Below, piece by piece: positions 17,501-32,351 of a stretch of DNA of 33,716 nucleotides. The stretch is from a virus, in the IMG/VR virus record IMGVR_UViG_3300042691_036898, positions 1 through 33,716 of that record; one strand, written 5' to 3'. The first letter of the stretch is position 1, and each line of letters begins with the position of its first letter. A program made the position numbers and the translations under genes. A model generated the notes under the pieces. It did not search any database, was not told where the DNA came from, and was given only the letters and a program-made list of their open reading frames with translations.

Positions 17501-20500
17501 TGACATATCCTCCTTATCTAACTTATCCAAGTGCAACCCGTATTGCTAGAAATAATAATCGTCGTTACACGATGAAAGATATCGGAACTCTTGATAAAAG
17601 AATTCGTAGCTTAGAAATTTATACTTCACTATCAATTGCCGAACTTGCTCTTTTGAATAAAAATGATAAACAACTTGTAGATACCAGCACTGGAATAAAC
17701 AGACCAAAAAATGGAATTTTTGTTGATTCTTTTAGTGACAAGAGAAGTGCTGACGTTATAGCACCAGGTTTTGATGCTGCTATTGACGTTATAACAAATA
17801 TCTGCCGTGGTTCTTATAATATTTCTTCAACAAAAATATTTTCTAACACTTCCCCCGCAAATCAAAATGTTGATATTAACGGTCCTTTATTGATGCTTGC
17901 TTCTTCAAACACAACTTTTGTGTTTCAAAATAGAGCATCAAAAACAATGAACATTAATCCATTTAACGTTGTTAATTATTTTGGTACAATTAGACTCGAT
18001 CCAAACTCTGATGTTTGGAAATCAACCACACGTGTAGAAGCACAAAATATTGACTTGTCGGGTGGTGCCGAAGCAAGAGATGCTTGGTCTTCAATTCAAA
18101 GCACAAACTGGCAAAGTTGGAATTCTTCATGGACAAGTGTTATAGACAAAACGTTGGAGGTTCAAAGAAATCCTTTTGGTACGCAAGGGCTTGGGACTTC
18201 ATGGTCAATGGTTGGTAGTGGAAGGTCATTTTCAATGGTACAGACATCAAATCCAATATATAAAGACGCATATGCAGTTAGAGCCGTTGGTGGAGCGATT
18301 GGTGCTGGCAATGCATATCTTGCTGCTGGTGGATATGCTCAAGGAGGATATGCTGCTACTCAATATGCTGACATCGAAGTTACTACCCAAAGATTAGTAG
18401 AAGCAACAGATACACTGTCCGCTTCACGTACAGGTATTCTTTCAAAAATTATTCCAGAAGAATTAACTAAGTCCTTTGGTGATAGACTCATTGACTTTAG
18501 TGTTGTGAGTTTTATGAGAGAAAAAAATATTCTTGTGCTTGCTGAGAAATTCAAACCATTTACAAGACTGTTTTCTTATTTTGATAACGTTCAGGTAACT
18601 GACAAAGTGTCGAAGATAAATCGTTTTGTGATGGACAATAATAATTTGGAATACAGAACCGATCTATCAAATGCGGAAGAAGTTTCAATTTATGCCGCCG
18701 CACAAATTTCTGGTGAAGTGGCAATTGACACTACTAAAAAAATTGGTGTTGGTAAAGTCGTGATGACTTCAAACAACAATGCGTTTATTGTTGGTATACA
18801 AGCCGATCCCACTTATGGTTCTTGGTCGCAATATACCACAGACGGCATTTATATTGTTGGTGATGAAACAGGTAAATCTTACAGAACAACAAAATGGTAT
18901 GTGACAACTGGTAGAGTTGAATCTGCAACTTCAAGTTCAATCACATTACCTCTGAATGCTGGTGGAGCCTCTGAAACCGGCGATTACGTTGGTCAAAGAC
19001 TTTACATACTCAGAGGAACTGGACAGGGACAATCATATACAATTTCAGGTTATAACCCCTCTACAAGAGTCGTTACAATTAATGGTGTCTTCATAACAAC
19101 TCCAGACGCAACTTCGATATTTTCAATTGGTGTTTTGGAAACAACTGCTGAAGGTGCTGTTGCTGGTATCTTCTTCTTACCTGCTGATGTTTTCCGTACA
19201 GGAGACAGAGTTTTCCGTTTGATTGACGATGAGTTTAACAACACAGAAAATTCAAGAACAAATGGTGATGCTAAATTCTTTGCACAGGGTGCCATTGAAA
19301 CAAAACAAGAAACTTCGGTGAGTGTGTTTACACCTTCTGTGCAAAGAAGTTCTGTTTCAGAAAGTTTTTCCGCATCACTCAGTTCAATTAAAACGGTTCG
19401 TGACACTACAGTTATGAAAAACGTTTGCGTTGGATATGCTGACCCGTTGGCACAAACATTCCTGATCAATCCAAACCAATATGGTCAAGGTATTGTTGTC
19501 GATTCAATTCGCATTTGCTTTAAAACAAAAGACCCAACCGAACCAGTGACTTGTCAAATTCGTCCCGTTGTAAATGGATTCCCATCTTCGGCTGTTATAT
19601 ACCCGTTTGCCGAGAAAACTATAACACCAGATAAGGTTAATTTAACTACGATACCTGATTTAACTGATCCGACAAAATACACCGAATTTAAGTTTGATGT
19701 GCCGGTTCTACTGTTACCTGGTGAACACTCATTTGTTCTACAGACTAACAGTAATGGTTATGAAGCGTTTATTGCTGAAATTGGTGCATTCGATTTGAGA
19801 ACTAGTGTGAAGATTTCTGAACAGCCTTACACAGGTTCTTTGTTCTTATCGCAAAACGGCTCTACGTGGGAGCCAGAACAGTTAAGCGATTTGATGTTTA
19901 GTATTCATAAACGAGTGTTTACGACTAATCTCGGTTATGCTTATTTTGAAGCGGATATGTCAGAATACAATGCGAATACCGTATTTGATTTAATGCAATT
20001 AATGTCAACTGATGCAGTTATTGCAAACACCTCCGCTCAATATGAGTTTTCTTCTGAATTAGATTCGGGTGAAGCACACTCACTGTTGCCTATTATACCG
20101 AATATTGATTATTCATGTAATGATGGTTATGGTAGAAGAATATTGAATAAAACAACTGGAAACACTACTTTCCAAGTAAGAGTAACCTTGCAAAGTACCA
20201 ATCCGGATGTTTCACCAATGCTTGATATTAATCGTTTAAACTTGTTAACCATTGAAAACAGGATTAATAATCTACCTCTGCAAAACACAGGATTTGTTAT
20301 TACTAATAGGGGTTCCGGTTATCCTGGAAATACAACAGTTTCAATTACATATCCTAGTGGCACTCTTGGTCAAGGAGATGGAAGTGCTAATGCATACGCC
20401 GAAGTTGTTGGTGGTCAAGTTGTTGCTATTCATTTGACTAGTCCAGGAGCAGGTTATATTACATCACCTAACGTAACAATTTCAGGTTCGTCCGGTTCCG

Positions 20501-20964
20501 GAGCAACTGCTATTTACAATGGTGAAGATAGAGCGGTTGGTGGTAATGCAAATATACGTTACATTACCAAAAAAATTAGATTAGCACCTGGCTTTGAGGC
20601 TGGAGATTTGAGAGTTTATATGGATGCATACCGACCACCAGGTTCAGGTATACTTGTTTATTACAAACTTCTATCTCACTCTGATCCAGCCAGCATTGAT
20701 GATAACAACTGGACTTTGATGACTGAAGATGCAACAACAGCTTCATTTGTTTCTAAAAATGGAGAATTCGCAGAATTAGTTTTTGCTCCAGGTCCTTATG
20801 GTTCAGGAATTGCTGATAATAGAGTTACCTATAGAAAAGGTGACACTACATATCCAAACTTTTATCTTTTCTGTGTTAAAGTTGTGATGTATGGAACAAG
20901 CACAGTTGATGTGCCAATATTTGCACAACTAAGAGTAATTGCTCTTCCTTCTCTTGTGGATTAA
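14557..20964 (+). CDS. Giant virion structural protein (DUF4815-type)
   Basis: The 2135-residue protein opens with NTNFNVDPYYDDFDENKNYH, LLYKPGFAVQSRELTQLQTT and KFGDHMFRTGSVVTGG. This start is very characteristic of the large virion protein after gp8 in cyanophage-like T4 relatives, a family I believe is called DUF4815. It takes the place of T4 gp9/gp10 on the map and is probably a baseplate-peripheral or fibre-connecting protein. A Ser/Trp-rich loop (WSSIQSTNWQSWNSSW) and a Gly/Ala/Tyr-rich loop (GAGNAYLAAGGYAQGGY) occur near residues 1175-1265. Residues about 1912-1989 are a GxGY repeat pair placed just before a conserved ending (YITKKIRLAPGFEAGDLRVY). The start has AAAAGGT 7 bases upstream. 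Confidence 0.85.
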   Translation: MALNTNFNVDPYYDDFDENKNYHRLLYKPGFAVQSRELTQLQTTLQDQIKKFGDHMFRTGSVVTGGSILIQNTAYLNISSSYSGQDINYINFDKQTIINTANTKRAYVLKSYAADAINDEPITLLINQNYGEPFVENETFYTLNTDPTVITYYANTASANATGNNQSFSVGEGVFYYDGFFVKTQPQSVAVDKYNRKGNAIIGFTISEDIIDYTEDTTLLDPAQGSSNFQAPGADRYKVLMTLDTRPIGSTDLTRFIELGTISEGVPQKIVETPIYGPIADEFARRTNDESGDYIIKNFEITVTDSAANNAFINVSLGSGKAYIKGYEFETGLPTIITIPKPRTTQAITNRRIGVDYGYFIYANGMYGNFATNNFGLAELSLLNANAANAYLTTGPTLSGNNDVYSNTVIGTTRVKLSVFSGLNSDTPNDSNTYIYKLYVTDVNTRSIAANNGYGINAVGGNTTTITLPPGFAANNDVYKGLNLRVVGGQNVFGDTQRRIITNYQGATRNATISPAFAETTNVGTFSNYRFFIETDTSAMESLVVRGTGSSLNTVIASANVHPLTKILELGKPPQELSLLGDFAYQPAYIQGSGSEPLLVRIGEPNIADNTIRDFSYGYKRLYQTVTFTADVSQTLSVGTGETIIDADTNEEKLKYYQVIVTDPKTSFYAKGQTVPSQAFTVNPIARTITVTNGKDMVANIYAVINASEPTSKTKRFIKANTQFVEPVTANSIFGAGGGSGNTSVYLAATDGQVLIAESFIRRTPGSTQHLYVTDVHSINAIFDFNGTATTTANFNSIRGSASANVTGRYNFNTGQRDSYYDWGSISLKPGQTAPRGPLLVLFNRFVSTGSGYFDVSSYTRLGSQQNGGSGVDFGDISVFETQDGSKIGLGDYLDFRPARRDATTLALANTFVLNVDEAVLGPQIAEPGQEIVADYEYYLPRIDRVVLNKSRDVAFEVIQGTSAVGPVLPGEPDNSMTLYTLTYPPYLTYPSATRIARNNNRRYTMKDIGTLDKRIRSLEIYTSLSIAELALLNKNDKQLVDTSTGINRPKNGIFVDSFSDKRSADVIAPGFDAAIDVITNICRGSYNISSTKIFSNTSPANQNVDINGPLLMLASSNTTFVFQNRASKTMNINPFNVVNYFGTIRLDPNSDVWKSTTRVEAQNIDLSGGAEARDAWSSIQSTNWQSWNSSWTSVIDKTLEVQRNPFGTQGLGTSWSMVGSGRSFSMVQTSNPIYKDAYAVRAVGGAIGAGNAYLAAGGYAQGGYAATQYADIEVTTQRLVEATDTLSASRTGILSKIIPEELTKSFGDRLIDFSVVSFMREKNILVLAEKFKPFTRLFSYFDNVQVTDKVSKINRFVMDNNNLEYRTDLSNAEEVSIYAAAQISGEVAIDTTKKIGVGKVVMTSNNNAFIVGIQADPTYGSWSQYTTDGIYIVGDETGKSYRTTKWYVTTGRVESATSSSITLPLNAGGASETGDYVGQRLYILRGTGQGQSYTISGYNPSTRVVTINGVFITTPDATSIFSIGVLETTAEGAVAGIFFLPADVFRTGDRVFRLIDDEFNNTENSRTNGDAKFFAQGAIETKQETSVSVFTPSVQRSSVSESFSASLSSIKTVRDTTVMKNVCVGYADPLAQTFLINPNQYGQGIVVDSIRICFKTKDPTEPVTCQIRPVVNGFPSSAVIYPFAEKTITPDKVNLTTIPDLTDPTKYTEFKFDVPVLLLPGEHSFVLQTNSNGYEAFIAEIGAFDLRTSVKISEQPYTGSLFLSQNGSTWEPEQLSDLMFSIHKRVFTTNLGYAYFEADMSEYNANTVFDLMQLMSTDAVIANTSAQYEFSSELDSGEAHSLLPIIPNIDYSCNDGYGRRILNKTTGNTTFQVRVTLQSTNPDVSPMLDINRLNLLTIENRINNLPLQNTGFVITNRGSGYPGNTTVSITYPSGTLGQGDGSANAYAEVVGGQVVAIHLTSPGAGYITSPNVTISGSSGSGATAIYNGEDRAVGGNANIRYITKKIRLAPGFEAGDLRVYMDAYRPPGSGILVYYKLLSHSDPASIDDNNWTLMTEDATTASFVSKNGEFAELVFAPGPYGSGIADNRVTYRKGDTTYPNFYLFCVKVVMYGTSTVDVPIFAQLRVIALPSLVD
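20290..20523 (+). repeat. GxGY-type repeat domain inserted near the end of the giant virion protein
   Basis: Two units are seen, NRGSGYPGNTTVSITYPSG then SPGAGYITSPNVTISGSSGS, each followed by an Ala-rich or Gly-linked strand (GGQVVAIHL between them). The layout is the same as the domain in gp6. It separates RLNLLTIENRINNLPLQ from YITKKIRLAPGFEAGDLRVY, segments that I expect to be closer together in relatives. Confidence 0.7.
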
Positions 20965-21190: not shown

Positions 21191-22051
21191 ATGGCAATAG
21201 ATCAAATTTCAACAGCCAATACTTTTGAAGAATGGTTGACCACTACCTCCACTTTGGTGGCGGTGGCCAATAACCTTACTGATAATACAGGTGGTGGGTT
21301 TTATGCCAATTCTTCGATCTTCATCGAAGGTTCCGCTGCTTCTCTGAATGTTCGTACATTAGCAAACATTAATACACTCAGAGCAAATACAGCAAACCTT
21401 GCTAATGTTCTTTTCTTTAATGATGACGTAACAATACCGAGAGATTTGTTGATTGGAAGAAATGCCAATCTAATCGCAAACATAGCTTCGGTTAATGTTA
21501 CCAATCGATTGTTTGTTGGTGGTGATACGTTCTTACACGGTAATTTAACGATATCGGGTAACACCACTTTAGATGCCATTGGCTTTAATGATTTGGCTGT
21601 GGCAGGTAATGCAAGTATTGCTCAAACTTTAGTTATTGTTGGAAGTACATTAGGTTCAAACTTAACACTAAGCGGCAATATTACCACTGCTAATGTAACG
21701 ACAACTTTAAATGTTGGTAGCAGCATTACTACACCAACTGCTAACATAGCAACCCTCAATGTTACAAATGGATTAATCCTTACAGGTAATGCTGCACGTG
21801 TAAATGTCACAAGTAATTTAGCAGTCGGTGGTGATGCGTTCATTTATGGTAATTTGACAATCACTGGTAACACTACTTTAGATTCTATTGGTTTCAACGA
21901 CCTGAGTGTAGCTGGTTCGATTAATGCGGCCAATTTAAATACAAGCACCGGTAATATTACAAACTTAGTTGGCCAAGCAAATACAGCAATTTATGGTGCA
22001 ATTTCGGCGGCGATTGACTCATCAATTGCTTTTTCGATTGCCTTAGGTTGA
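21191..22051 (+). CDS. Tail-fibre-like protein with internal duplication
   Basis: The 286-residue protein starts with STANTFEEWLTTTSTLVAVA, an N-terminal attachment-like helix common in tail-fibre-type proteins of T4-like marine phages. The rest is Asn/Thr/Ala-rich with repeated strands of the form V-x-GN-L-x-I-x-G-NT-x-L. Residues 101-139 and 204-242 are two copies of a 39-residue unit (both contain GNTTLD, then IGFNDL). The last 25 residues form an Ala/Ser-rich hydrophobic tail. The fold is probably a trimeric beta-structured fibre shaft. It is coupled to the coiled-coil gene and ends just before a candidate late promoter. The receptor target is unknown. Confidence 0.75.
   Translation: MAIDQISTANTFEEWLTTTSTLVAVANNLTDNTGGGFYANSSIFIEGSAASLNVRTLANINTLRANTANLANVLFFNDDVTIPRDLLIGRNANLIANIASVNVTNRLFVGGDTFLHGNLTISGNTTLDAIGFNDLAVAGNASIAQTLVIVGSTLGSNLTLSGNITTANVTTTLNVGSSITTPTANIATLNVTNGLILTGNAARVNVTSNLAVGGDAFIYGNLTITGNTTLDSIGFNDLSVAGSINAANLNTSTGNITNLVGQANTAIYGAISAAIDSSIAFSIALG
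21491..21607 (+). repeat. First copy of 39-residue fibre repeat
   Basis: Encodes residues 101-139 (VNVTNRLFVGGDTFLHGNLT onward to DLAVAG). The second copy at 21800-21916 keeps the same length and about 30 of 39 residues, while many third codon positions differ. Confidence 0.8.
21800..21916 (+). repeat. Second copy of 39-residue fibre repeat
   Basis: Encodes residues 204-242 (VNVTSNLAVGGDAFIYGNLT onward to DLSVAG), in register with the first copy 309 bases upstream. Confidence 0.8.
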
Positions 22052-22058
22052 ATAAATA
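22051..22058 (+). promoter_or_regulatory. Candidate T4-like late promoter box (AATAAATA)
   Basis: AATAAATA followed by C, one mismatch to TATAAATA. It overlaps the end of the fibre gene's stop region and lies 22 bases before the next ATG at 22081, with purine-rich GAAGGAAAACAGAGGA between. The spacing leaves a short leader as at the other candidates. It would drive the adhesin region. Confidence 0.5.
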
Positions 22059-22080: not shown

Positions 22081-22413
22081 ATGGCAAATACGTTTAGAAA
22101 TCAAACACTCAAAGCCGCTGGAACTACGGCACAAAATGCTTACGCCGCTGGTGCCGGTGTACAAGCAACTGTCATTGGTATGACGATTGCTAATATTACT
22201 AATTCACCCATTTCTGCGAATGTCATTTTAAGTGGTGGAAATATTACTGATAATGTTTACTTAGTTCGAAATGCTACGATTGCTCCGGGTGGTGCATTAG
22301 TGCCCGTTGGTGGTGATCAAAAACTCGTTTTAGAAGCCGGAGATTATTTACAGGTTAATACTTCAATCGCATCTTCTGCTGATGTTATTACCTCAATTCT
22401 GGAGATTACTTAA
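22081..22413 (+). CDS. Small beta-rich virion/fibre-associated protein (paralog 1)
   Basis: This 110-residue protein has a pattern I know from many phage tail genes: VIGMTIANITNSPISANVIL, then VYLVRNATIAPGGALVPVGG, DQKLVLEAGDYLQVNTSIA and VITSILEIT. This points to an all-beta sandwich with a conserved LEAGD-x-(I/L) turn. It probably forms part of the fibre or adhesin complex. Two further small proteins (starting at 22857 and 26644) share the same plan with a final S-x-x-E-I/EEI ending. It is preceded by a candidate late promoter and a good ribosome site (CAGAGGA). It overlaps the next ATG by one base (TAATG). Confidence 0.75.
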   Translation: MANTFRNQTLKAAGTTAQNAYAAGAGVQATVIGMTIANITNSPISANVILSGGNITDNVYLVRNATIAPGGALVPVGGDQKLVLEAGDYLQVNTSIASSADVITSILEIT

Positions 22414-22841
22414 TGGCATACATTGGTAACAATCCTGATGTAAATGCTTTTACAATAACACTTGATAGATTTAGTGGTACTGGTGCTTGCACTCAATTTA
22501 CGCTAACTAGAGATATTGATGATGCTTTAGCAGTTGAAGTGGTTGTAGATGGAGTTATTCAGTCACCTACCATTTCTTACACAGTTTCAAACGGTGTCGT
22601 GACATTTGATGAGGCGCCTATTTTAGGCACGAATAATATTAGTGTTAGATACCTTGCACCTATTGTAGTCACATTTAATCAGGTCACGGCTTCACAAATA
22701 CAACCAAATTCTGTAACACAAACAGCAATCGCAGTAAACTCTGTAACAAACGAAAAAATTGCAAACAACACTGTTACGGGCGAAAAAATCAGTTCACCAG
22801 CAGACATCTTTGATGATGCTTTCTTATTTGGCGGAATGTAA
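22413..22841 (+). CDS. YIGN-type tail-fibre-like protein (cassette copy 1)
   Basis: The 142-residue protein starts MAYIGNNPDVNAFTITLDRF followed by SGTGACTQFTLTRD. The YIGN/YIGQ start with an FSG-x-G-x-x-x-x-F strand is a known beta-rich fibre family in T7-like and T4-like phages. Residues about 95-130 hold SVTQTAIAVNSVT, then NEKIANNTVTGEKI, which belongs to the short S/D-x-V-x-x-x-K-(L/I)-A-(D/N) repeats of fibre shafts. The ending FLFGGM is close to the IFGG ending of the second copy at 26218. It is translationally coupled to the upstream gene (TAATG). Function: probable adaptor or shaft for the adhesin encoded two genes downstream. Confidence 0.75.
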   Translation: MAYIGNNPDVNAFTITLDRFSGTGACTQFTLTRDIDDALAVEVVVDGVIQSPTISYTVSNGVVTFDEAPILGTNNISVRYLAPIVVTFNQVTASQIQPNSVTQTAIAVNSVTNEKIANNTVTGEKISSPADIFDDAFLFGGM

Positions 22842-22856
22842 AAAGGAAAAAATCAA

Positions 22857-23195
22857 ATGGCAAGAGCATATAGAATTTTAGGACAAGTAAATCCATCAGC
22901 AAATGTGTTAAGCACATTGTACACAGTGCCCGCATCAAACTCTGCAATCATTTCATCAATTGTTGTTTCCAACTTAGATGAAAATGTCGGTGGTGGCGCT
23001 TCTTTTAGAATTGCAGCAAACGTTTCTGGTGTTGCTGTTGGTAACTCAAATTACATTGCATATAGTGTAAATGTACCAGCCCGTGATACTGTGACAATGA
23101 CATTGGGTATTACATTAAATGCCGGTTCAATTGTATCCATTAATGCTAATAGTTCTTTGGTAACATTTTCAGCATTTGGTACCGAAATATATTAA
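22857..23195 (+). CDS. Small beta-rich fibre-associated protein (paralog 2, cassette copy 1)
   Basis: The 112-residue product reads ARAYRILGQVNPSANVLSTL, then YTVPASNSAIISSIVVSNLD, VNVPARDTVTMTLGITLNAG and LVTFSAFGTEIY. The VPASNSAIISSI start and the AGSIV-x-I end follow the same plan as the products starting at 22081 and 26644, so the three are probably paralogs of one beta-sandwich family. It is separated from the YIGN gene by 15 bases containing AAAAAGGAAAAAA, a good ribosome site. It is followed by the glycine-rich adhesin gene after 10 bases, the same order as in the second cassette. A head- or fibre-decoration role cannot be excluded. Confidence 0.75.
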   Translation: MARAYRILGQVNPSANVLSTLYTVPASNSAIISSIVVSNLDENVGGGASFRIAANVSGVAVGNSNYIAYSVNVPARDTVTMTLGITLNAGSIVSINANSSLVTFSAFGTEIY

Positions 23196-23205
23196 TGGTA
23201 TTTGA

Positions 23206-25746
23206 ATGAGTCAGCGTAGACTTCAAATAAATCCTGCTTCGTCAAGAAGAATATCTACAAAATCAATCAGAGTTTTACTCTCTTTGAGTAGACTGTCTGT
23301 GCCAGCGTTTGGTGTGATTAGTGCCAGTTACGTAGTCAGTCGAATATTCACAGAAACAACCACATGGGTAGCACCATCTGGTGTAGCACAAGTTGATTAT
23401 CTTGTTGTTGCTGGTGGAGGTGGTGGAAGTGGAGGTGGTGGGGGTGCTGGTGGTTTTAGAACATCACCTTCTCTTACTGTCACTCCGGGTCAAACTTATA
23501 CAATTAGTGTTGGTGCGGGTGGAACAGGAATGAGTGGTGCTACTCCTGCTTATGCCACCAATGGTTCAAATTCTGGAATTTTTTCTTCTTCACCATTCCC
23601 TGCTGTATGGTCATCAGGTGGTGGTCGTGCTGGTACAAATGGTGAAAGTGCGCCGCAAAGTAATGGCAACTCTGGTGGTAGCGGTGGTGGTGGCGGTACG
23701 GATGGTTCACCGGGCACACCAACAAATCAAAGACTTGGTGGACGAGGTAATCTTGGAGCATATACACCCGTAGAAGGTTTTGGTGGTGCTGCTGGAATGT
23801 TTTTTGATGCGTTTGGTGAAGCTGGTGCTGGTGGTGGCGGTGGTGCAGGTGCAAATGGCATAAGTTCGTTTAATTCACCTCCATTTAGTTTTGGTGGAAA
23901 TGGTGGTATAGGATTATTTTCAACAATTTCCGGTGCAAATGTTGGATATAGTGGCGGCGGCGGCGCCGGACTTTATACTGGTTCCCCTGGCGCACCATCA
24001 CCACTGACAAGAATAAAGGGAGAAGGCGCCTATGTTTTTGGTGGTGCAAACGGAGCAACTGCGGGTCAGACTGCTACAACTGCCATTGCTAATCGTGGCG
24101 GAGGTGGTGGAGGAGGTAGAGGTCTTGCTCCAGGATCAATTGGTGGCACCTCTGGTGGCTCTGGTGTCATCATTCTTCGTTATACTGAAACTACTCCTAC
24201 GGTGAATGGCGTTTATGTTTTTGCCAATACGGGTCAATTAAGAATACCTGATGGCATATCAAGAGCCGACATTATGGTGATTGGTGGTGGAGGTTCTGGT
24301 GCATCTGATGCTGGAGGTGGTGCCGGTGGAATGAGATATTTGACCAGTTATCCAGTAAATGGTAATACGCTTTATACAATTACGGTTGGTGCTGGCGGTG
24401 CAGGAAAAACTGGGCAGGGTACTCCTGGAAATCCAGGCTCAGATTCTTCAATAACGGCTGCACCACCGTTTTCAAATGTTTCAGCAAACGGTGGTGGCGC
24501 AGGTGGCGGCGCTGCGACCGGACTCATTGGTGGCTCTGGTGGCGGTGGCGGCGGACCTAATAATGGAGGAGGCTTATCAATTCCTGCTCAAGGGCGTAAT
24601 GGTGGGACTGGTGGTGGTTCACCCGGTCCTGCTGGTGCCCAACCCGCAGGCGGTGGGGGTGGCGGTGCCGGAGGACTTGGCGGAAATGCTTCACCCGGCG
24701 GCGGCACAGGTGGGTTGGGACTATTCTCTTCAATCACGGGCGCTAATGTTGGTTATGCCGGTGGTGGTGGAGGCGGTGCGCCACTTTTTGGTGGGGGTGG
24801 TTCAGCACATCCGCAATTTGGTGGAGCGCCTGGCGCTGTTGGTGGCTACGGATTGAATGGTGTAAGTGCTGCTTCGGGTCAGGGTGGCGGTGGCGGTGGC
24901 GCACCGACAAGTGGTGGTGGTCCCACAGGAAGTATACCTGTTACTGCTGGTTCTGGTGGTTCTGGAATAGTTGTCGTTAAACTTGATACATCGAACAATC
25001 AAAACGGATTAGCAACATTTTATAGTACATCAACGTGGACCGTTCCAACTGGTGTAACTTCAATGCAGTACCTTGTCGTTGCTGGTGGCGGTGGAGCAGG
25101 AGGTGCAGGTGGAGGTGTAAACTATTGGGCTGGCGGTGGTGGAGGTGCTGGTGGGTATAGAGTAAGTCCGTCAATACCAGTAAATCCAGGTACAACATAT
25201 ACTGTTGTTGTCGGCGCTGGTGGTGCTGGCATTACAGAATCAAGTCCAGTTGGAGGCAATGGATCAAACTCTGGATTCTATATTGCTGGAAGTCCATCAA
25301 GCAATGTTTGGTCAACTGGTGGTGGTGGGGGTGGCACTGCTGGTGTATTTGGTGCTGCTGGCGGATCAGGCGGAGGAGGAGGAGGCGGTACTGGCGGATT
25401 ACCTCCTTACACTCAAGGTGGTGGTGCTGGTAACCTTGGTGGTCATACACCCTCTGAAGGAAATGCCGGATCAACTGGTGGCGGACAATACGGTGGTGGA
25501 GGTGGTGGCGGTGCCGCTGGCGCTGGTGGTATACCAAGTCGTGAAATGGGAGGCTTAGGTATATTTAACACAATAACTGGTGCAAATAATTACTATGCTT
25601 TTGGTGGAAATAGCGCATTCTCAACAACTCCAACAACACCACCAAGCACAACATCTGGTACAGGCGGTGGTGGTATTGGTAGTTATTGGCCAGGTGTTCG
25701 TGGTGCTGATGGTGGTTCTGGTATCGTTGTTTTTAAATGGACATAA
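23206..25746 (+). CDS. Glycine-rich adhesin/tail fibre A (three Gly-rich modules)
   Basis: The 846-residue protein has a basic N-terminus (RRLQINPASSRRISTKSIRV) unlike those of the other two adhesins. Three modules follow at residues about 48-327, 337-594 and 602-846. Each opens with a strand pair (TTTWVAPSGVAQVDYLVVAG, LRIPDGISRADIMVIGGGG, STWTVPTGVTSMQYLVVAGG), carries V-x-PG-x-x-YT-I/V-x-VGAGG, continues through poly-Gly runs with GxGxFSxIxGANxGYxGGGG, and ends GGSGxxxxK/R strands (SGIVVFKWT). This is a Gly-rich domain family seen in phage fibres, I believe Pfam Gly_rich_2. By analogy with phage S16 gp38, the Gly runs may form polyglycine-II helices that display receptor-binding loops. Glycine is roughly two-fifths of the modules. 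The ribosome site is weak (ATTTGA). Confidence 0.85.
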   Translation: MSQRRLQINPASSRRISTKSIRVLLSLSRLSVPAFGVISASYVVSRIFTETTTWVAPSGVAQVDYLVVAGGGGGSGGGGGAGGFRTSPSLTVTPGQTYTISVGAGGTGMSGATPAYATNGSNSGIFSSSPFPAVWSSGGGRAGTNGESAPQSNGNSGGSGGGGGTDGSPGTPTNQRLGGRGNLGAYTPVEGFGGAAGMFFDAFGEAGAGGGGGAGANGISSFNSPPFSFGGNGGIGLFSTISGANVGYSGGGGAGLYTGSPGAPSPLTRIKGEGAYVFGGANGATAGQTATTAIANRGGGGGGGRGLAPGSIGGTSGGSGVIILRYTETTPTVNGVYVFANTGQLRIPDGISRADIMVIGGGGSGASDAGGGAGGMRYLTSYPVNGNTLYTITVGAGGAGKTGQGTPGNPGSDSSITAAPPFSNVSANGGGAGGGAATGLIGGSGGGGGGPNNGGGLSIPAQGRNGGTGGGSPGPAGAQPAGGGGGGAGGLGGNASPGGGTGGLGLFSSITGANVGYAGGGGGGAPLFGGGGSAHPQFGGAPGAVGGYGLNGVSAASGQGGGGGGAPTSGGGPTGSIPVTAGSGGSGIVVVKLDTSNNQNGLATFYSTSTWTVPTGVTSMQYLVVAGGGGAGGAGGGVNYWAGGGGGAGGYRVSPSIPVNPGTTYTVVVGAGGAGITESSPVGGNGSNSGFYIAGSPSSNVWSTGGGGGGTAGVFGAAGGSGGGGGGGTGGLPPYTQGGGAGNLGGHTPSEGNAGSTGGGQYGGGGGGGAAGAGGIPSREMGGLGIFNTITGANNYYAFGGNSAFSTTPTTPPSTTSGTGGGGIGSYWPGVRGADGGSGIVVFKWT

Positions 25747-25753
25747 AATACAA

Positions 25754-25761
25754 CATAAATA
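25754..25761 (+). promoter_or_regulatory. T4-like late promoter box (CATAAATA)
   Basis: CATAAATA followed by C, one mismatch to TATAAATA, in the 40-base gap after adhesin A. The next start at 25787 is 25 bases downstream, behind the ribosome site AGAGGTGA (25774-25781). It is identical in eight bases to the box at 613. Confidence 0.6.
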
Positions 25762-25786
25762 CTTTTATTTAATTAGAGGTGATTGA

Positions 25787-26206
25787 ATGAATAACGAACA
25801 AATTTCTTATGCACAGTATTTGGTAGGCAACAATAACAAACTTGTGTGTGGTATTGATACTGCAATTAAAGCACTTAGACCACATGCTCGTTATGATATG
25901 TCGGCATCAGGTGGACATTTTGATTTCACACGATGGGAAGATGAAACGGGTTCGAAGCCACCAACTAGAGAAGAGATTTTTAAAGAATTAGAATATCAGA
26001 ATAGATTTATTGAATACTGGCAGCACTTTATCGATCGTGCTGCAAACTATCCCGATATCGTAAGCATAGTAAATAATTTGTGGGAAGCAATGGACAATAG
26101 TGAGATTCCAGGTAAAGGAACAAAGTTCTATGAGTCAATCAAAGAAGTGAATGACGAGTTTCCTAGACCAGCAGGCGAACCACCAGTAAGACCGACATAC
26201 GAATAA
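25787..26206 (+). CDS. Hypothetical protein between adhesin cassettes
   Basis: I do not recognise this 139-residue protein. It is soluble-looking and charged, without membrane segments. A middle motif, RPHARYDMSASGGHFDFTRW followed by EDETGSKPPTREEIFKELEY, resembles the short W-x-D/E-x-x-x-x-KPT-x-x-E-I pattern of small proteins encoded beside tail fibres, where the second half would be helical. It ends Pro-rich (NDEFPRPAGEPPVRPTYE). It has its own late-promoter box and ribosome site and lies between the two adhesin cassettes. That makes a fibre-assembly helper or a small adhesin partner possible, but nothing in the sequence proves either. Confidence 0.75.
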   Translation: MNNEQISYAQYLVGNNNKLVCGIDTAIKALRPHARYDMSASGGHFDFTRWEDETGSKPPTREEIFKELEYQNRFIEYWQHFIDRAANYPDIVSIVNNLWEAMDNSEIPGKGTKFYESIKEVNDEFPRPAGEPPVRPTYE

Positions 26207-26217
26207 TAGGAAATTAA

Positions 26218-26640
26218 ATGTCATATATTGGCAATCAAGTTACTTCGGTACCACACATAATAGATACATTTAGTGGCAATGGTGTCACAACCTCATTTGG
26301 ACCTTTGGTTCGGGCACCAGCCGGAGTTGCAGCCATTGCAGTATTCATTTCTGGTTCTTATAAAACACCCGGAATAGATTATACAATAAATGGTGATGTT
26401 ATTGTGTTTATGAATGCTCCAGCACCAGGAACAAGTAACATTATTGTTCATCATTTAGGTAACGGAACATCAACTCAAGTTCCTTCTGATGGTTCGGTTA
26501 CGACAATAAAATTGTCGGATGGTTCAGTTAATGGTTCTAAATTGGCAAACAACTCTGTTGGTGCTAATAATTTTTCAACATCAGCAAATTCAAGAATTTT
26601 CAGTTCGGGCGCTGTAGGTGCGCTCATTTTCGGAGGTTAA
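26218..26640 (+). CDS. YIGN-type tail-fibre-like protein (cassette copy 2)
   Basis: The 140-residue protein opens MSYIGNQVTSVPHIIDTFSG followed by NGVTTSFGPLVRAPAG. It matches the protein encoded at 22413 in the YIGN start, the FSG-x-G-x-x-x-x-F strand, the D-Y-x-I/V-x-x-(G/N)-x-V/I-F strand, PAPGTSNIIVHHLG against PILGTNNISVRYLA, the SVTTIKLSDGSVNGSKLANN repeats and the final FGG. Overall identity is low, so the duplication is old. It is followed after 3 bases by a small beta-rich gene and then by a Gly-rich adhesin, as in copy 1. AGGAAATTAA before the ATG is the ribosome site. Confidence 0.75.
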   Translation: MSYIGNQVTSVPHIIDTFSGNGVTTSFGPLVRAPAGVAAIAVFISGSYKTPGIDYTINGDVIVFMNAPAPGTSNIIVHHLGNGTSTQVPSDGSVTTIKLSDGSVNGSKLANNSVGANNFSTSANSRIFSSGAVGALIFGG

Positions 26641-26643
26641 TAA

Positions 26644-27027
26644 ATGGCTGCGCCAAACATTGTTAGCGTATCAAATATTTTAGGTAAAAGTAATGTCGCC
26701 AACGTTACAACAGTTTCTTCTGCTGTAATTGTAAACCCTGTCAATTCAAATAAAGTATTTAAAATTAATACCATAATTATTTCAAATATTGACGGCACAA
26801 ATTCTGGTAATGTATCAGTTGATTTGTTTAAATTTGGCGCACAAAACTCAAGCACAGGCACAGGTAATACAACTTACGCTATCGCTAATGTTATTACAGT
26901 GCCAGCAAAGTCTTCATTAGACATTATTTCAAAAACGCTGTATCTGGAAGAGGGTGATCAAATTAGAGTTAGGGGTGATTCAAACAGTCGCTTAAACTTC
27001 ATTTCATCTTTTGAAGAGATTAGTTAA
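26644..27027 (+). CDS. Small beta-rich fibre-associated protein (paralog 3, cassette copy 2)
   Basis: The 127-residue product (NIVSVSNILGKSNVANVTTV, then VIVNPVNSNKVFKINTIIIS, ITVPAKSSLDIISKTLYLEE and GDQIRVRGDSNSRLNFISSF) shares the strand plan of the proteins starting at 22081 and 22857. It has VPA-x-x-S/D-x-x-x-x-x-x-x-L before LEEGDQI, and it ends EEIS like LEIT. A strong ribosome site (GGAGGT, 26634-26639) overlaps the preceding stop codon. Its stop overlaps the adhesin B start codon by one base (TAATG). It is probably a structural partner of adhesin B. Confidence 0.75.
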   Translation: MAAPNIVSVSNILGKSNVANVTTVSSAVIVNPVNSNKVFKINTIIISNIDGTNSGNVSVDLFKFGAQNSSTGTGNTTYAIANVITVPAKSSLDIISKTLYLEEGDQIRVRGDSNSRLNFISSFEEIS

Positions 27028-29444
27028 TGCCTTTAGGTTTAAATGGTGGCCTTATTGGTCAACCAAACTCACCATCAAGAGTTGGACGAGTATCGGGTGC
27101 TTGGACACTTGATCAAGTACACATCAATAGATTAGCCAATTTATGGCCTCTTGACTTGTCTAATGAATTTTCCACTATACAAACATTTACACAAAGTGGA
27201 ACCTGGACTGCACCACAAGACGTAACATCAGTCGAATATCTTGTTGTTGCCGGTGGAGGTGGTGCTGGTGCTAACTATGGTGGAGGTGGTGGTGCCGGAG
27301 GTGTTCGTGTTTCACCTTCTTATTCGGTGGTACCTGGACAAACATACACAATTACCATTGGTGCTGGTGGATCTGGAGCCACTCCTAGTGTAAGAGGTTC
27401 AAACGGCACAAATTCTGTTTTCGACACAATTTCAGCAACCGGTGGAGGTGGGGGTGGAACTTATACACCTGGTTCAAACGGTGAAGGTAATAGTGGAGGT
27501 TCGGGTGGTGGTGGCGCCTTACTCTTTATTTCACCGTTTGCTGGCTCAATTGGTGGACGTGGCAATTTAGGAAATTATACTCCTGTTGAAGGATTAGGTG
27601 GTGGAACAGGTGCAGGTACACCTGTTTTTGGTTTAGGTGGCGGAGGTGGTGGTTCATCAGCAAACGGAACAAACGCTGTACCAACTGGTGGCAACGGTGG
27701 CATAGGAATCTTTTCAACAATTTCGGGCGCAAATACAGCATATGCTGGTGGCGGTGGTGGTGGAGGTGATTTTCGAGCGCCATCTCCTTTTGGAGGAAGA
27801 GGCGGCGCCGGCGGTGGTGGTAGAGGTGGTAATGGAACTCCAGGTCAAGAAAGTGGCGAAAGAGCAAATACAAACACTGGCGGTGGTGGTGGCGGTGGTG
27901 GTTGGAGTGGATCGATGGGTACATCTGGTGCCGGCGGCTCAGGCGTTGTAATTCTTCGTTATGCGGCGCAACCGCCAAGTCAAAATCTTTACTTCAATTT
28001 CGACACATCAGGTCAGTTCGAAGTTCCGACAGGTTATTCATTAATGGATTACTTCATCATCGCAGGTGGTGGTTCGGGAGGAAATGGACCTTCTGCTGGT
28101 GGCGGTGGTGCAGGTGGTGTGATAACAGGAACTGGTTTTCCTGTAGTTGCAAAACAAAAATATACAGTTGTGGTTGGAGGTGGTGGCGCTAATGCCGCAC
28201 CGTCAGCAGTCGGAACAAGAGGAAGTAATACACTAATTTCTTTTGGAAATACTGTTGATGCAAATGTTCTCTTCTGTGCAGTCGGTGGTGGCGGCGGTGG
28301 CGGTGACGCTGGTGGTGGCACTTCAGGTGGTTCTGGAGGCGGCGGCAATGGCGGTACTGGAGGCGCTGGCGGTGTAGCAGGACAAGGTTTTGCTGGTGGT
28401 GGCGGTAGTGGCGCACCAATGTTTAACATTGGTGGAGGTGGTGGAGGTGCTAGAGGTGCTGGCAACGGAAACGGACTTTCTAACGGTGGTATAGGAATAT
28501 TTTCTACATTTAGCGGCTCTAACGTTGCTTATGCTGGCGGTGGAGGTGGTAGCAATGGATTTGGTGGGGGTGGATACGCATTATATTCAACGGGTGCGCC
28601 ATGGTTGGGCACACCTTTTGGTGGTGGAACTAACGGTTCATCTGCAAACACAAACACTGGTGGTGGCGGTGGACGAATCGCCGCAGGTGGTTCGGGTCTT
28701 GTGTTAATTAGACTCTCTGTGAATCAAAACACTTTTGCCAATGTTACTAACACGACTATATGGCAAGTTCCTGCTGGAGTAACTTCAGTACAATACTTGT
28801 TTGTTGGAGGTGGTGGTGGCGGCGGTGACGCAGGACCTATTTCTGGAGGTGGGGGTGCAGGTGGAGTTTTAACTAGTCCATCATTCCCAGTTACTCCCGG
28901 TGCAATATACACTGTAACAGTAGGTGCTGGTGGTGCTGCTGGTGCAAACGGAGGAAATACTGGAATTTCTGGATCAGATATATCTACTGTTACTGCACTT
29001 GGTGGTGGTCGTGGTGGTGGCACTAGCGGTGGCAGTTTTGGTGCATCTGGGGGTTCAGGTGGCGGCGCACAATCTTCCGGGAGTTTTGGCTTAGGTACCT
29101 CTCCTCAAGGAAACAATGGTGGAAGAGGGTTTGATTTTGCACCAGGCGGTAATACAGTTGGTGGTGGTGGTGGCGGTGCAGGTAGTCCTGGCGTAAATGG
29201 TGGCTCCTTCGGTTCTGGTGGTGGTTCGGGTGGTAGAGGAATTTATAGTTCAATTACCGGTGCTAACACAGGTTACGCCGGAGGTGGCACCGCTACCGGT
29301 AGCGGTGCTGGTAATGACAATAGCACATTCAATTGGTTATACGGCGGTGGTAATTCATTTACTATGGGAGTCGCATCAACTGGCGGTGGAGGAGGCGGCG
29401 CTGTTGCTGGTGGTTCCGGTATTGCTGTTCTTAGATGGGCATAA
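27027..29444 (+). CDS. Glycine-rich adhesin/tail fibre B (three Gly-rich modules)
   Basis: The 805-residue protein starts with an anchor-like N-terminus shared with adhesin C: GGLIGQPN, then SGAWTLDQVHINRLANLWPLD. Three Gly-rich modules follow at residues about 52-313, 321-564 and 570-805, opening with FTQSGTWTAPQDVTSVEYLV, FEVPTGYSLMDYFIIAGGGS and IWQVPAGVTSVQYLFVGGGG, and closing with SGVVILRYA, SGLVLIRLS and SGIAVLRWA. Conserved inner marks are GIGIFSTISGANTAYAGGGG and PGQTYTITIGAGG. The third module is nearly the same as the first module of adhesin C. The most probable role is host recognition at the fibre or baseplate periphery. It overlaps the preceding gene by one base. Confidence 0.85.
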   Translation: MPLGLNGGLIGQPNSPSRVGRVSGAWTLDQVHINRLANLWPLDLSNEFSTIQTFTQSGTWTAPQDVTSVEYLVVAGGGGAGANYGGGGGAGGVRVSPSYSVVPGQTYTITIGAGGSGATPSVRGSNGTNSVFDTISATGGGGGGTYTPGSNGEGNSGGSGGGGALLFISPFAGSIGGRGNLGNYTPVEGLGGGTGAGTPVFGLGGGGGGSSANGTNAVPTGGNGGIGIFSTISGANTAYAGGGGGGGDFRAPSPFGGRGGAGGGGRGGNGTPGQESGERANTNTGGGGGGGGWSGSMGTSGAGGSGVVILRYAAQPPSQNLYFNFDTSGQFEVPTGYSLMDYFIIAGGGSGGNGPSAGGGGAGGVITGTGFPVVAKQKYTVVVGGGGANAAPSAVGTRGSNTLISFGNTVDANVLFCAVGGGGGGGDAGGGTSGGSGGGGNGGTGGAGGVAGQGFAGGGGSGAPMFNIGGGGGGARGAGNGNGLSNGGIGIFSTFSGSNVAYAGGGGGSNGFGGGGYALYSTGAPWLGTPFGGGTNGSSANTNTGGGGGRIAAGGSGLVLIRLSVNQNTFANVTNTTIWQVPAGVTSVQYLFVGGGGGGGDAGPISGGGGAGGVLTSPSFPVTPGAIYTVTVGAGGAAGANGGNTGISGSDISTVTALGGGRGGGTSGGSFGASGGSGGGAQSSGSFGLGTSPQGNNGGRGFDFAPGGNTVGGGGGGAGSPGVNGGSFGSGGGSGGRGIYSSITGANTGYAGGGTATGSGAGNDNSTFNWLYGGGNSFTMGVASTGGGGGGAVAGGSGIAVLRWA
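28989..29357 (+). repeat. Module segment duplicated in the next gene (copy in adhesin B)
   Basis: Encodes residues 655-777 of adhesin B, aligned without gaps to residues 135-257 of adhesin C (29850-30218). By my count about 11 of 123 residues differ. The two copies share a perfect 32-base run (29305-29336 and 30166-30197) but differ at many third codon positions elsewhere. Confidence 0.85.
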
Positions 29445-29447
29445 CAA

Positions 29448-31910
29448 ATGGCGATTAGCAGAAGATTTAACGGTGGTATAATTGGTGTTAGAAACATTGC
29501 CAGTGTGTTTGGTACTACTGGCTTTTGGACACCCGGTGAAGTTCAACTTGCAAGAATGTCTTCAATATGGCCGGCCGATGCTGCACCGTCTGTCGGTGTT
29601 CAAGTTTTTAGAGGAACTTCACCCTGGACTGCTCCACAGGGTGTGACAAACGTAGAGTATCTCGTTATTGGTGGCGGCGGCGGAGGTGGTGATGGAGGAC
29701 CTGCTGGTGGTGGAGGTGCTGGTGGAGTTTTAACAAGTTCATCTTTGACAGTAACGCCGGGAACGACATACACCGTTACAGTTGGTTCAGGTGGCGCCGC
29801 AGCCGCAAATGGAACAAATAGCAGTATCTCCGGAACAGGATTAACTACTGTTACTGCACTTGGTGGCGGTCGTGGCGGTGGTACTACTGGTAGTAGTTTT
29901 GGTGCATCTGGAGGCTCAGGCGGTGGCGCACAGTCTTCTGGAAGTTTTGGATTAGGAACACCCGGTCAAGGAAATAATGGCGGAAGAGGATTTGATACTG
30001 CACCAGGCGGTAATACCGTAGGTGGTGGCGGTGGCGGTGCTGGCAGTGTCGGTGTAAATGGTGGCTCTTTTGGATCTGGTGGTGGCTCTGGTGGTAGAGG
30101 AATTTTCAGTTCAATTTCTGGTGCTAACGTAGGTTATGCTGGAGGTGGTACTTCTACCGGTAGCAGTGCTGGTAATGACAATAGCACATTCAATTGGCTG
30201 TACGGTGGTGGCAATTCAGCAATTTCGGCATCGGAATCAACTGGTAGTGGTGGTGGTGGTACTGCGGCCGGAGGTTCTGGTGTAGTTGTTCTCAAATGGC
30301 GCTTCTTTGATTCGGCGAATCAAATGTTTGTTTTCGCAAATACAGGACAATTTGTAGTGCCTGATGGTGTAACTAGCATTGATTATTTGTTAGTGGCAGG
30401 TGGCGGCGGAACCTCAACTGATGTTGCCGGTGGTGGTGGCGCTGGCGGTTTATTAACAGGTACAAGTTATCCAGTTACTCCAGGCCAATTGTACACAATT
30501 TCAATTGGCGCTGGTGGTTTTAATGCGAATGGCTCTAATTCATTTCTTTCTGCTGGAAACACAGCAAACGCAAGTTTGATTACAGCACTAGGTGGAGGAC
30601 GTGGTGGAACTTGGGCGGAAACTGGCCGATCAGGTGGTTCTGGCGGTGGCGGTGGCGGCAATAATTCAGCAGGTGGTTTAGGAACACCAGGACAAGGAAA
30701 CAATGGTGGAAATGGCACTGCTCCGGTTGGTGCTGGTGGAGGTGGTGGTGCCGGTGGAGTAGGAAGAAATGGTATTGCTGCTCCTGCTGGTGGAGGCGGT
30801 AATGGTGGCATAGGAATTTTCTCAACGATTACAGGATCAAATACAGCATATGCTGGTGGTGGAGGTGGTGGTTCCAATCAAACACCTGAGGGTGTTGTCT
30901 TTGATCATGGTCGTGGCGGCACAGGCGGTGGTGGAATTGGTGCCATTGGTAATGCTGCTACTCCATCTGGGCAACAACGTGCTGCCGCAAATGGTGTTAC
31001 AAATACTGGTGGTGGCGGTGGTGGCAACTATGGAAATGCTGGTGCACCAGCAGGCGGTGCGGGCGGCTCAGGTTTTGCTGTTATCAAAATCTCCGCCACA
31101 CAAAATAAGATTGCAATTTTTTCCAACACATCAACATGGACTGTGCCAACGGGTGTGACAAGTATAGAATATCTCATTGTCGGCGGTGGTGGTGCTGGAG
31201 GTACTGATGGTGGTACGGGTGCTGGATGCGGCGGTGGAGGTGCGGGTGGTTTCAGAACAAGTCCATCTTTAACAGTTACACCCGGTGTAGTAATGACTGT
31301 TAGCGTTGGCGGAGGTGGTGCAGCGGGTGCACCTTCACCTGGCGCACAATCTACAAACGGTTCAAATTCAGGCATTTTTAGTTCTTCGCCATTCCCTGCT
31401 GTATGGTCATCAGGTGGCGGAAGAGGTTCTGGATATTCTGCACCGGCATATTATAGAGCAATGTCGGGTGGTTCTGGTGGCGGCGGTGGTGGTTATCTTG
31501 AATTCTCCGGCGGACTTGGTAATCTTGGTGGTTATTCACCTTCCGAGGGTAGTGCTGGTGGATCAACTCCCGGTGGCGCACAATACGCAGGTGCGGGTGG
31601 CGGTGGTGCCGGTGGTGTTGGACAAAACGGAACCGGTCCCGGTGCTGGTGCTGGCGGCATAGGAGTATTTTCTTCACTCTCTGGTTCAAATACGGGATAT
31701 GCTGCTGGCGGTGGTGGTGGTGGAAGTAATACAGATCAACCCGGTGCCATTGGGGGTATGAACATTGGTGGTCGTGGTGGAACAGGTCCCGCTACAAGTG
31801 GAACTAATGGAGCCATTTTCACGGGTAGTGGTGGCGGTGGTGGTGTTGAAAATCCAGGAACAAGAGGTGGATCGGGTGGATCTGGAATTGTTATTCTCAA
31901 ATGGATATAA
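29448..31910 (+). CDS. Glycine-rich adhesin/tail fibre C (three Gly-rich modules)
   Basis: The 820-residue protein has an N-terminus related to B: FNGGIIGVRN, then TGFWTPGEVQLARMSSIWPAD. The modules lie at residues about 52-285, 293-550 and 556-820. They open with GTSPWTAPQGVTNVEYLVIG, FVVPDGVTSIDYLLVAGGGG and STWTVPTGVTSIEYLIVGGG, and close with SGVVVLKW, SGFAVIKIS and SGIVILKWI. Module 1 is close to module 3 of B. Module 3 shares an exact 24-residue segment (starting TNGSNSGIFSSSPFP) with module 1 of A. It lies 3 bases after B and ends at two tandem late-promoter boxes, the first of which covers its stop codon. It has no YIGN or small beta gene directly before it, so it may be a duplicate of B. 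Confidence 0.85.
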   Translation: MAISRRFNGGIIGVRNIASVFGTTGFWTPGEVQLARMSSIWPADAAPSVGVQVFRGTSPWTAPQGVTNVEYLVIGGGGGGGDGGPAGGGGAGGVLTSSSLTVTPGTTYTVTVGSGGAAAANGTNSSISGTGLTTVTALGGGRGGGTTGSSFGASGGSGGGAQSSGSFGLGTPGQGNNGGRGFDTAPGGNTVGGGGGGAGSVGVNGGSFGSGGGSGGRGIFSSISGANVGYAGGGTSTGSSAGNDNSTFNWLYGGGNSAISASESTGSGGGGTAAGGSGVVVLKWRFFDSANQMFVFANTGQFVVPDGVTSIDYLLVAGGGGTSTDVAGGGGAGGLLTGTSYPVTPGQLYTISIGAGGFNANGSNSFLSAGNTANASLITALGGGRGGTWAETGRSGGSGGGGGGNNSAGGLGTPGQGNNGGNGTAPVGAGGGGGAGGVGRNGIAAPAGGGGNGGIGIFSTITGSNTAYAGGGGGGSNQTPEGVVFDHGRGGTGGGGIGAIGNAATPSGQQRAAANGVTNTGGGGGGNYGNAGAPAGGAGGSGFAVIKISATQNKIAIFSNTSTWTVPTGVTSIEYLIVGGGGAGGTDGGTGAGCGGGGAGGFRTSPSLTVTPGVVMTVSVGGGGAAGAPSPGAQSTNGSNSGIFSSSPFPAVWSSGGGRGSGYSAPAYYRAMSGGSGGGGGGYLEFSGGLGNLGGYSPSEGSAGGSTPGGAQYAGAGGGGAGGVGQNGTGPGAGAGGIGVFSSLSGSNTGYAAGGGGGGSNTDQPGAIGGMNIGGRGGTGPATSGTNGAIFTGSGGGGGVENPGTRGGSGGSGIVILKWI
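29850..30218 (+). repeat. Module segment duplicated from the preceding gene (copy in adhesin C)
   Basis: Encodes residues 135-257 of adhesin C. It is the partner of 28989-29357 in adhesin B, in the same reading frame and 861 bases downstream. Confidence 0.85.
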
Positions 31911-31913
31911 ATA
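31906..31913 (+). promoter_or_regulatory. T4-like late promoter box 1 (TATAAATA)
   Basis: An exact match to the T4 late-promoter consensus TATAAATA. It overlaps the stop codon of adhesin C (31908-31910) and lies 49-56 bases before the next ATG at 31962. A second exact box follows 12 bases later. Confidence 0.65.
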
Positions 31914-31917
31914 GATT

Positions 31918-31925
31918 TATAAATA
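31918..31925 (+). promoter_or_regulatory. T4-like late promoter box 2 (TATAAATA)
   Basis: A second exact TATAAATA, followed by C as at the other candidate boxes. A start of transcription near 31932 would give a leader of about 30 bases with the ribosome site AAGAGGGAG before the ATG at 31962. Confidence 0.7.
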
Positions 31926-31961: not shown

Positions 31962-32351
31962 ATGGCACATTTTGCACAACTTGATGATAACAATGTAGTA
32001 ACACAGGTCATTGTTGTGTCTAACAATGAACTGCTTGACGCTGGTGGTCAAGAACGTGAAGAAATGGGTATTGGTTTTTGCCAAAGATTGTTCGGTGGCA
32101 ATTGGAAGCAAACATCATACAATCATAACTTCCGCAAGCGTTATGCAGGCATCGGTTACACATACAATGCTGAACTTGATGCATTCGTTCCACCTAAACC
32201 ATTTGCTTCATGGGTATTAAACACAGAAGAAGCAAATTGGGAAGCACCTGTACCACAGCCAGCAGACATGGGCATGGGTGAAGGTAAAAAGATGTATACG
32301 TGGGATGAAGAAACGACTTCGTGGAAAGAAGTTGAAGAGCAACCCGCCTAA
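31962..32351 (+). CDS. Conserved marine-phage hypothetical protein in its own transcription unit
   Basis: The 129-residue protein begins MAHFAQLDDNNVVTQVIVVS and continues ELLDAGGQEREEMGIGFCQR, LFGGNWKQTSYNHNFRKRYA, GIGYTYNAELDAFVPPKPFA and SWVLNTEEANWEAPVPQPAD. I recall this layout as a very common uncharacterised protein of aquatic phages, with the RK-x-YAGIGYTY and PPKP-x-x-SW marks. It has a single Cys, no membrane segment and an acidic C-terminus. It stands alone between two late-promoter boxes and a strong terminator, so high, separate late expression is likely. That would suit an abundant virion or tail-associated protein, but the function is unknown. The ribosome site AAGAGGGAG is good. 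Confidence 0.8.
   Translation: MAHFAQLDDNNVVTQVIVVSNNELLDAGGQEREEMGIGFCQRLFGGNWKQTSYNHNFRKRYAGIGYTYNAELDAFVPPKPFASWVLNTEEANWEAPVPQPADMGMGEGKKMYTWDEETTSWKEVEEQPA

Follow-up and report, generated by a model that had tools for sequence, protein, structure and literature searches.

The window analysed here is a stretch of 33,716 bases that makes up positions 1 to 33,716 of the virus record IMGVR_UViG_3300042691_036898. It covers a T4-like baseplate region with homologues of gp6, gp8 and VrlC/DUF4815, and downstream of VrlC it carries an array of putative receptor-binding genes, all of them located on the plus strand. The array consists of two tandem units, referred to as slots, with the gene layout SB110-YIGN-SB112-GR / CH139-YIGN-SB127-GR-GR, in which SB stands for small beta protein and GR for glycine-rich adhesin. 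Slot A (22081-25746) encodes one adhesin and slot B (25787-31910) two, so that the whole array encodes three. A preliminary description, which was made from the letters alone, had reported a three-gene adhesin cassette present twice in tandem. Its six open reading frames were recovered at the same positions and in the same order, and the pairs it recognised are real; however, a third SB gene (22081) and a third adhesin gene (29448-31910) had been missed. The features of the array are as follows.

22052..22058, plus strand: late-promoter motif ATAAATA of slot A, 29 bp before SB110
22081..22413, plus strand: SB110, small beta protein of slot A, predicted jelly-roll SB family (PHROG 1276, E 1e-8; positional orthologue group in the tree)
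22413..22841, plus strand: YIGN-A, putative attachment beta-sandwich, decapeptide stalk and FDDAFLFGGM end (homology, tree, stalk analysis)
22857..23195, plus strand: SB112, small beta protein preceding the slot A adhesin (PHROG 1276, tree, gene linkage)
23206..25746, plus strand: slot A glycine-rich adhesin, N-terminus MSQRRL...SLSRLSVP followed by three Gly_rich_2 modules (PF21722, E 3e-52; slot A anchor class)
25755..25761, plus strand: late-promoter motif ATAAATA of slot B, at a conserved position upstream of CH139 or YIGN-B in relatives
25787..26206, plus strand: CH139, conserved protein (identity to relatives)
26218..26640, plus strand: YIGN-B, putative attachment beta-sandwich, decapeptide stalk and VGALIFGG end (AlphaFold model, match to the T7 tail fibre)
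26644..27027, plus strand: SB127, small beta protein preceding the slot B adhesins, predicted single jelly roll (model, tree, gene linkage)
27027..29444, plus strand: slot B adhesin 1, N-terminus PLGLNGGLIG...LANLWP followed by three modules (PF21722, E 7e-53)
29448..31910, plus strand: slot B adhesin 2, N-terminus RRFNGGIIG...WTPGEV followed by three modules (PF21722, E 2e-59)
31907..31925, plus strand: two late-promoter motifs (31907 and 31919), past the slot B unit and before F129 (motif position in relatives)

The two slots are homologous in all three kinds of protein, which supports the earlier suggestion of a duplicated and diverged unit of the receptor-binding type. YIGN-A and YIGN-B align over their full length with 51 identities in 148 columns, 23 standard deviations (SD) above shuffled sequences, and 0 of 200 shuffles scored as high; the similarity of the two proteins is low, as had been described, but their homology is nonetheless clear. 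The small proteins encoded at 22857 and 26644 score 6.7 SD above shuffles (0 of 200 as high), and the adhesins encoded at 23206 and 27027 share 394 identities in 844 columns (about 50 SD). In the tree of YIGN proteins, a single change suffices to explain the slot labels, and in the SB tree the labels SB110, SB112 and SB127 require two changes, which is the minimum. The mean identity between YIGN-A and YIGN-B is 34% within one genome and 34% between genomes, and the duplication therefore predates this group of phages. On this evidence, slots A and B are ancient paralogues and positional orthologues, and neither a recent nor a concerted pair. A search for recent gene conversion between the slots of the window yielded no match of at least 90 nucleotides (nt) at 85%; only an older sharing between both slot B adhesins was detected.

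Relatives were collected by scanning viral contigs three times, with YIGN-B, YIGN-A and CH139 as queries, which resulted in 49 merged stretches. Since these queries select for the array itself, a second sample was anchored outside the array and comprised loci with an LT111 gene of at least 79% identity and at least 7 kb of upstream sequence. CH139 is followed by a YIGN gene in 25 of these 25 loci (around 18 of them non-redundant), in agreement with the expectation that the genes occur as a set. Nearly all related contigs have the common order DUF4815-s473-P286-SB110-YIGN-SB112-adhesin-CH139-YIGN-SB127-adhesin(s)-F129-LT111. The cassette copy number, which had been expected to vary, is thus stable in the lineage: a few variants apart, the relatives have both slots and keep their order, and it is the adhesin that varies instead. 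More distant LT111 relatives (L146, L147, L151, L155 and L160) possess a single large gene of 550 to 1680 amino acids between s473 and LT111, and others have unrelated genes at the position of the array.

The motif ATAAATA, the core of the T4 late consensus, was sought within 90 bp upstream of genes, where the background expectation is 0.019 per gene. In 28 of 28 relatives it precedes SB110, and it also precedes CH139 in 17 of 27, YIGN-B in 9 of 27, F129 in 12 of 14 and gp8 in 9 of 9. The same 90-bp region lacks the motif in all 63 glycine-rich adhesin genes, all 31 SB112 genes and all 21 SB127 genes. Because of these positions, slots A and B are probably separate late transcription units. The late sequence of T4 is TATAAAT (PMC3037559), and by analogy with T4 and its relatives, ATAAATA would act as a promoter here. 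The candidate late promoter proposed earlier in front of the gene at 25787 corresponds to the ATAAATA at 25755, the position of which is kept in relatives. TATAAATA alone was considered as a signal and rejected, as it occurs at chance level in the window; ATAAATA is informative only through its position upstream of genes.

Both YIGN proteins consist of a conserved N-terminal domain, ten-residue repeats and a conserved end, for which slot A has FDDxFLFGGM and slot B IFGG. In 22 of 23 cases, the stalks of slot A proteins have the same length modulo 10, i.e., they differ in steps of whole repeats. An AlphaFold model of YIGN-B contains a block with predicted local distance difference test values (pLDDT) of 86-94 at residues 11-80, and residues 13-81 of the model match the N-terminal domain of the T7 tail fibre (Z 9.4, root-mean-square deviation 2.3, 68 residues). 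Other fold matches include LME-1 (Z 9.0) and CBA120 TSP4 (Z 8.8), and tail fibre, tailspike or tail/neck proteins account for most of the top-ranked chains; Foldseek alone reached only an E value of 0.056. At the sequence level, neither YIGN protein matched PF03906, the sequence family of T7 gp17, at E 1 in a Pfam scan, and the YIGN profile matches the fibre of cyanophage P-SCSP1u with an E value of 4e-5. Judging from the model and from the likeness to T7, the YIGN proteins may thus serve in attachment to the virion. The YIGN end is linked to the gene that follows: an SB gene comes next in 42 of 42 cases in which the protein ends in FGG or FGA, and longer YIGN proteins without this end mostly precede an adhesin whose N-terminus belongs to a third class. 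The stalk lengths of YIGN-A and YIGN-B co-vary among 16 genomes (Spearman 0.80); with phylogenetic contrasts, r is 0.53 and p is 0.05, so that after this correction the co-variation is suggestive and only a lead.

All three small proteins of the array (22081, 22857 and 26644) match PHROG 1276. The model of SB127 has a pLDDT of 85 and resembles jelly rolls with Z values of 8 to 9.5, a common fold found in nucleoplasmin, turret and cement proteins, and no function was read from these matches. A sequence search of the PDB with the SB proteins returned nothing significant. An adhesin with a class B N-terminus follows SB127 in 20 of 21 cases, and this gene linkage suggests that the SB proteins act as adhesin adaptors.

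The adhesins had been described as three-module proteins, and indeed PF21722 (Gly_rich_2) is found three times in each of them, with scores of 178, 180 and 202 bits at a curated cut-off of 24.3 bits. As members of this family, they are likely to bind receptors. A sequence search of the PDB with the adhesins matched no solved adhesin, and the top phmmer match of one of them, a single-chain antibody, was dismissed as an artefact of its glycine linker. The N-termini were classified with profiles that were built from the first 55 residues in a leave-one-out manner. All 28 adhesins that follow SB112, including those that are not glycine-rich, were assigned to class A, and 0 slot B proteins fell into this class. 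The class A N-terminus also occurs on non-glycine-rich proteins of 681 to 1420 amino acids. One of these, a lectin-like protein of 1171 amino acids from a sister group, matches Laminin_G_3 and DUF7483, and the lectin-type adhesin was met in slot A only. Non-glycine-rich class A proteins are followed by a gene encoding 152 to 159 amino acids, one scanned member of which belongs to the PF16778 chaperone family.

The distal modules are exchanged between slots and between genomes. Module 1 of the slot A adhesin in 34106_003785 is 87% identical over 823 nt to module 3 of a slot B adhesin in 08116_000393, and 83% identical over 1076 nt to the start of the slot B adhesin in 46010_005479. Within the window, module 3 of the adhesin at 27027 and module 1 of that at 29448 are 80.7% identical over 555 nt.

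Taken together, the locus is probably a receptor-binding array with two sockets that are permanent and with adhesins that can be exchanged, and it is located inside the host recognition cluster after VrlC. This reading builds on what was established by computation: the homology, the gene order and slot orthology, the positions of the promoter motifs, the slot-specific N-termini, the exchange of modules and the length steps of ten residues. Each socket would represent a paralogous unit of ancient origin with a late promoter of its own. It would comprise a small jelly-roll protein and a YIGN fibre, the latter built of a T7-gp17-like attachment domain, a stalk of ten-residue repeats and a short tip. 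These would be followed by large glycine-rich adhesins, one or two per socket, with a socket-specific N-terminus and with distal modules that would be exchanged by recombination, both between slots and between phages. The virion would be assembled with both slots at once and would carry two fibre types and three adhesins simultaneously, and host range would shift via swaps of adhesin modules, without the attachment being rebuilt. A more far-reaching version is rather doubtful: a heritable two-socket platform, in which the permanently diverged sockets are length-tuned together in ten-residue steps, each virion displays two to three interchangeable adhesins, and a phage lineage samples receptor space by swaps of distal modules between sockets and genomes that leave the attachment untouched. 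If true, this would be a distinct way of building a multi-adhesin tail.

Several observations weigh against the two-socket array. Extra SB112 or adhesin genes are found in 21963_000038, L127 and L144, the contigs 17774 and 10885 have no SB genes and no slot adhesins, slot B is replaced in 46007, and 32093_000267 has SB112 without a slot A adhesin. The relatives are nearly all metagenomic contigs, and the lineage is known here from its genes alone. The jelly roll of the SB proteins is a very common fold, and the adaptor role therefore rests on gene linkage. Glycine-rich composition inflates the identity between modules (median 47%), so that only long DNA matches of high identity count as exchange; moreover, most best-matching modules keep their position in the gene, and exchange is therefore not free.

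The strongest alternative, which we consider quite conceivable though not the likelier outcome, assumes that the two fibres differ in function and divide the labour, e.g., into reversible and irreversible attachment or between two positions on the baseplate, each fibre having its own class of adhesins. It would account for the slot-specific and conserved N-termini and tips, the two adhesins in slot B versus one in slot A, and the restriction of the lectin-type adhesin to slot A, and a co-variation of the A and B stalks would be expected if both fibres reach the same surface together. However, this co-variation is weak once corrected, and distal modules cross between the slots, which suggests overlapping binding roles. 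A recent tandem duplication was rejected on the basis of the trees and the within-genome identities, and the scenario in which such a duplication left a variable copy number, permitting switching or co-display, is very unlikely: homologous units do stand in tandem, the slot B adhesins share their 555-nt stretch, and the extra copies in 21963_000038, L127 and L144 fit it as well, but the YIGN tree splits by slot, the similarity of A and B within a genome is not in excess, and the second unit is present in all 25 LT111-anchored close relatives. Inverted repeats of note are likewise missing. An invertible tail fibre cassette had been considered, but inverted repeats that bracket the units were not found and there is no evidence of programmed switching; the only inverted pair, of 21 nt and 81% identity, lies inside the adhesin genes, and the switching over time that the preliminary description had envisaged is thus not borne out. 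It is just as improbable that unlinked structural genes merely accumulate in a hypervariable host recognition cluster without organisation at the level of units, since gene order, slot orthology, promoter positions and N-termini are fixed in the lineage, even though the phage Melnitz has the same families in different order and number and the distant relatives with one large gene between s473 and LT111 would fit such a process.

The host recognition cluster of pelagimyophages is located between VrlC and a neck gene (PMC7029224). With its variable tail fibre genes immediately behind VrlC, the array resembles the cluster of pelagimyophages and cyanomyophages, a hypervariable tail fibre island directly after VrlC in T4-like phages. 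The cluster was described as non-syntenic, whereas the two slots of the array stand in fixed order and each has a promoter and adhesin N-termini of its own; gp14, the neck gene that bounds the cluster downstream, is located outside the present window. Phages with multiple receptor-binding proteins, in which docking parts are conserved and distal parts exchanged, are best known in the Ackermannviridae (PMC11414711). Given this precedent and the known cluster site, the earlier statement that cassette duplication in a T4-like tail is not a named system was too strong. The branched tailspike complex of the Ackermannviridae shares with the proposed array several receptor-binding proteins, conserved N-terminal docking and exchanged distal parts, and the YIGN fold resembles residues 187-250 of CBA120 TSP4; a match to a T4 baseplate chain is weak (Z 5.8), and YIGN sequences gave no evidence of the gp10-like XD domains by which several receptor-binding proteins are linked in the Ackermannviridae. 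Unlike that complex, the array, known here as a set of genes, is without recognised tailspikes, its adhesins are glycine-rich or lectin-like, and its sockets are separate paralogous small proteins. The predicted fold of the YIGN proteins recalls the N-terminal attachment domain of T7 gp17; however, T7 gp17 is one long fibre, whereas YIGN is a small separate protein without a PF03906 match.

Known glycine-rich adhesins include gp38 of S16 and gp24 of the myocyanophage Pam3, which has the chaperone gp25 (PMC9608196). Both have a glycine-rich distal receptor-binding domain on or beside a fibre, as the array adhesins may have, but Pam3 gp24 has one glycine-rich domain, whereas each of the three array adhesins has three PF21722 modules. 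Adhesins of the S16 gp38 type dock a polyglycine distal domain on the tip of a fibre; the array adhesins are glycine-rich in composition and adhesin-like in arrangement, but have no sequence match in the PDB. The nearest isolate with the families of the array is the Methylophilales phage Melnitz (MZ577098; PMC9004378), which has OM43 as its laboratory host and in which the YIGN, SB, glycine-rich and F129 families are also located between VrlC and LT111. Melnitz differs in gene order and in gene numbers, with four YIGN genes, two SB genes and several genes of the glycine-rich and F129 families; most of its genes are annotated as hypothetical. Open-licence papers yielded neither an analysis of slots in Melnitz nor a description of a fixed two-slot layout.

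The large T4-like phages that infect aquatic bacteria are abundant; however, most of the genes with which they recognise hosts carry hypothetical annotations and have been described as a hypervariable island. If this island follows a fixed grammar of two slots, slot-specific N-termini and exchangeable modules, host-range genes would become readable from metagenomes. Such a grammar would tell sockets from adhesins and predict the changing parts, and it makes the matching of fibre lengths testable.

The array is flanked by the following genes, and the window stops within the next fibre gene.

14557..20964, plus strand: VrlC/DUF4815 baseplate protein, the upstream boundary of the array (PF16075, E 3e-56)
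21191..22051, plus strand: P286, repetitive fibre-like protein and upstream neighbour (position conserved, length variable)
31962..32351, plus strand: F129, downstream boundary gene (Melnitz and HTVC008M likewise have members of the family behind glycine-rich adhesins)
32447..32782, plus strand: LT111, L-shaped tail fibre assembly (PHROG 3304), anchor outside the array (PHROG match)

The VrlC profile is matched by the 'VrlC protein' of HTVC008M and by VrlC of Mosig with E values of at most 1e-254. CH139, the gene at 25787 that had been listed as an unknown gene between the two cassettes, belongs to a highly conserved family; with CH139 as the query, identities are 72-93% in most relatives and around 50% in the lectin group. 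A Pfam scan with CH139 gave no match, PHROG gave weak unnamed matches, and a sequence search of the PDB returned a chance-level match only (E 0.024). An assignment to the PF16778 (Phage_tail_APC) chaperones was rejected, as CH139 and its variants have no Pfam match and a profile comparison with PF16778-type proteins was negative. CH139 might be a tail-fibre assembly factor, which is a guess from its position and from a similarly laid-out 98-amino-acid protein in 37963_001728. A tandem CH139 pair is present in 42905_003911 (L001:7121-7986); the two copies are 50% and 89% identical to that of the window, as if each sister group had contributed one.

Glycine-rich adhesin genes are repeatedly followed by a member of the F129 family, not only in the window (31962-32351) but also at L073:3706, 15313 and 21001, at L074:22825 and in the isolates Melnitz and HTVC008M, and this gene position suggests a role of F129 as partner or chaperone of the adhesins. 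The contigs 43395_002731 (L058:1-2472) and 47546_002519 (L056) contain a second locus, in which a glycine-rich gene and an F129-like gene occur together with a CH139 gene that is 84% identical to that of the window; in 43395_002731, this locus is located tens of kb away from the main array.

Some of the variant loci have a structure of their own. In 32093_000267 (L069:9638-10411), CH139 directly follows SB112 and the upstream P286 is enlarged to 672 amino acids, as if taking over. In 46007_006572 (L030), an unrelated block encoding proteins of 468, 468, 716 and 451 amino acids replaces slot B after YIGN-B at 8001; the 451-amino-acid product may be a glycosyltransferase, although this is an impression only. 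In the divergent relative 21963_000038 (L026), there are four genes of the SB112 type and seven glycine-rich genes with a single module each, and extra copies thus occur outside the close group.

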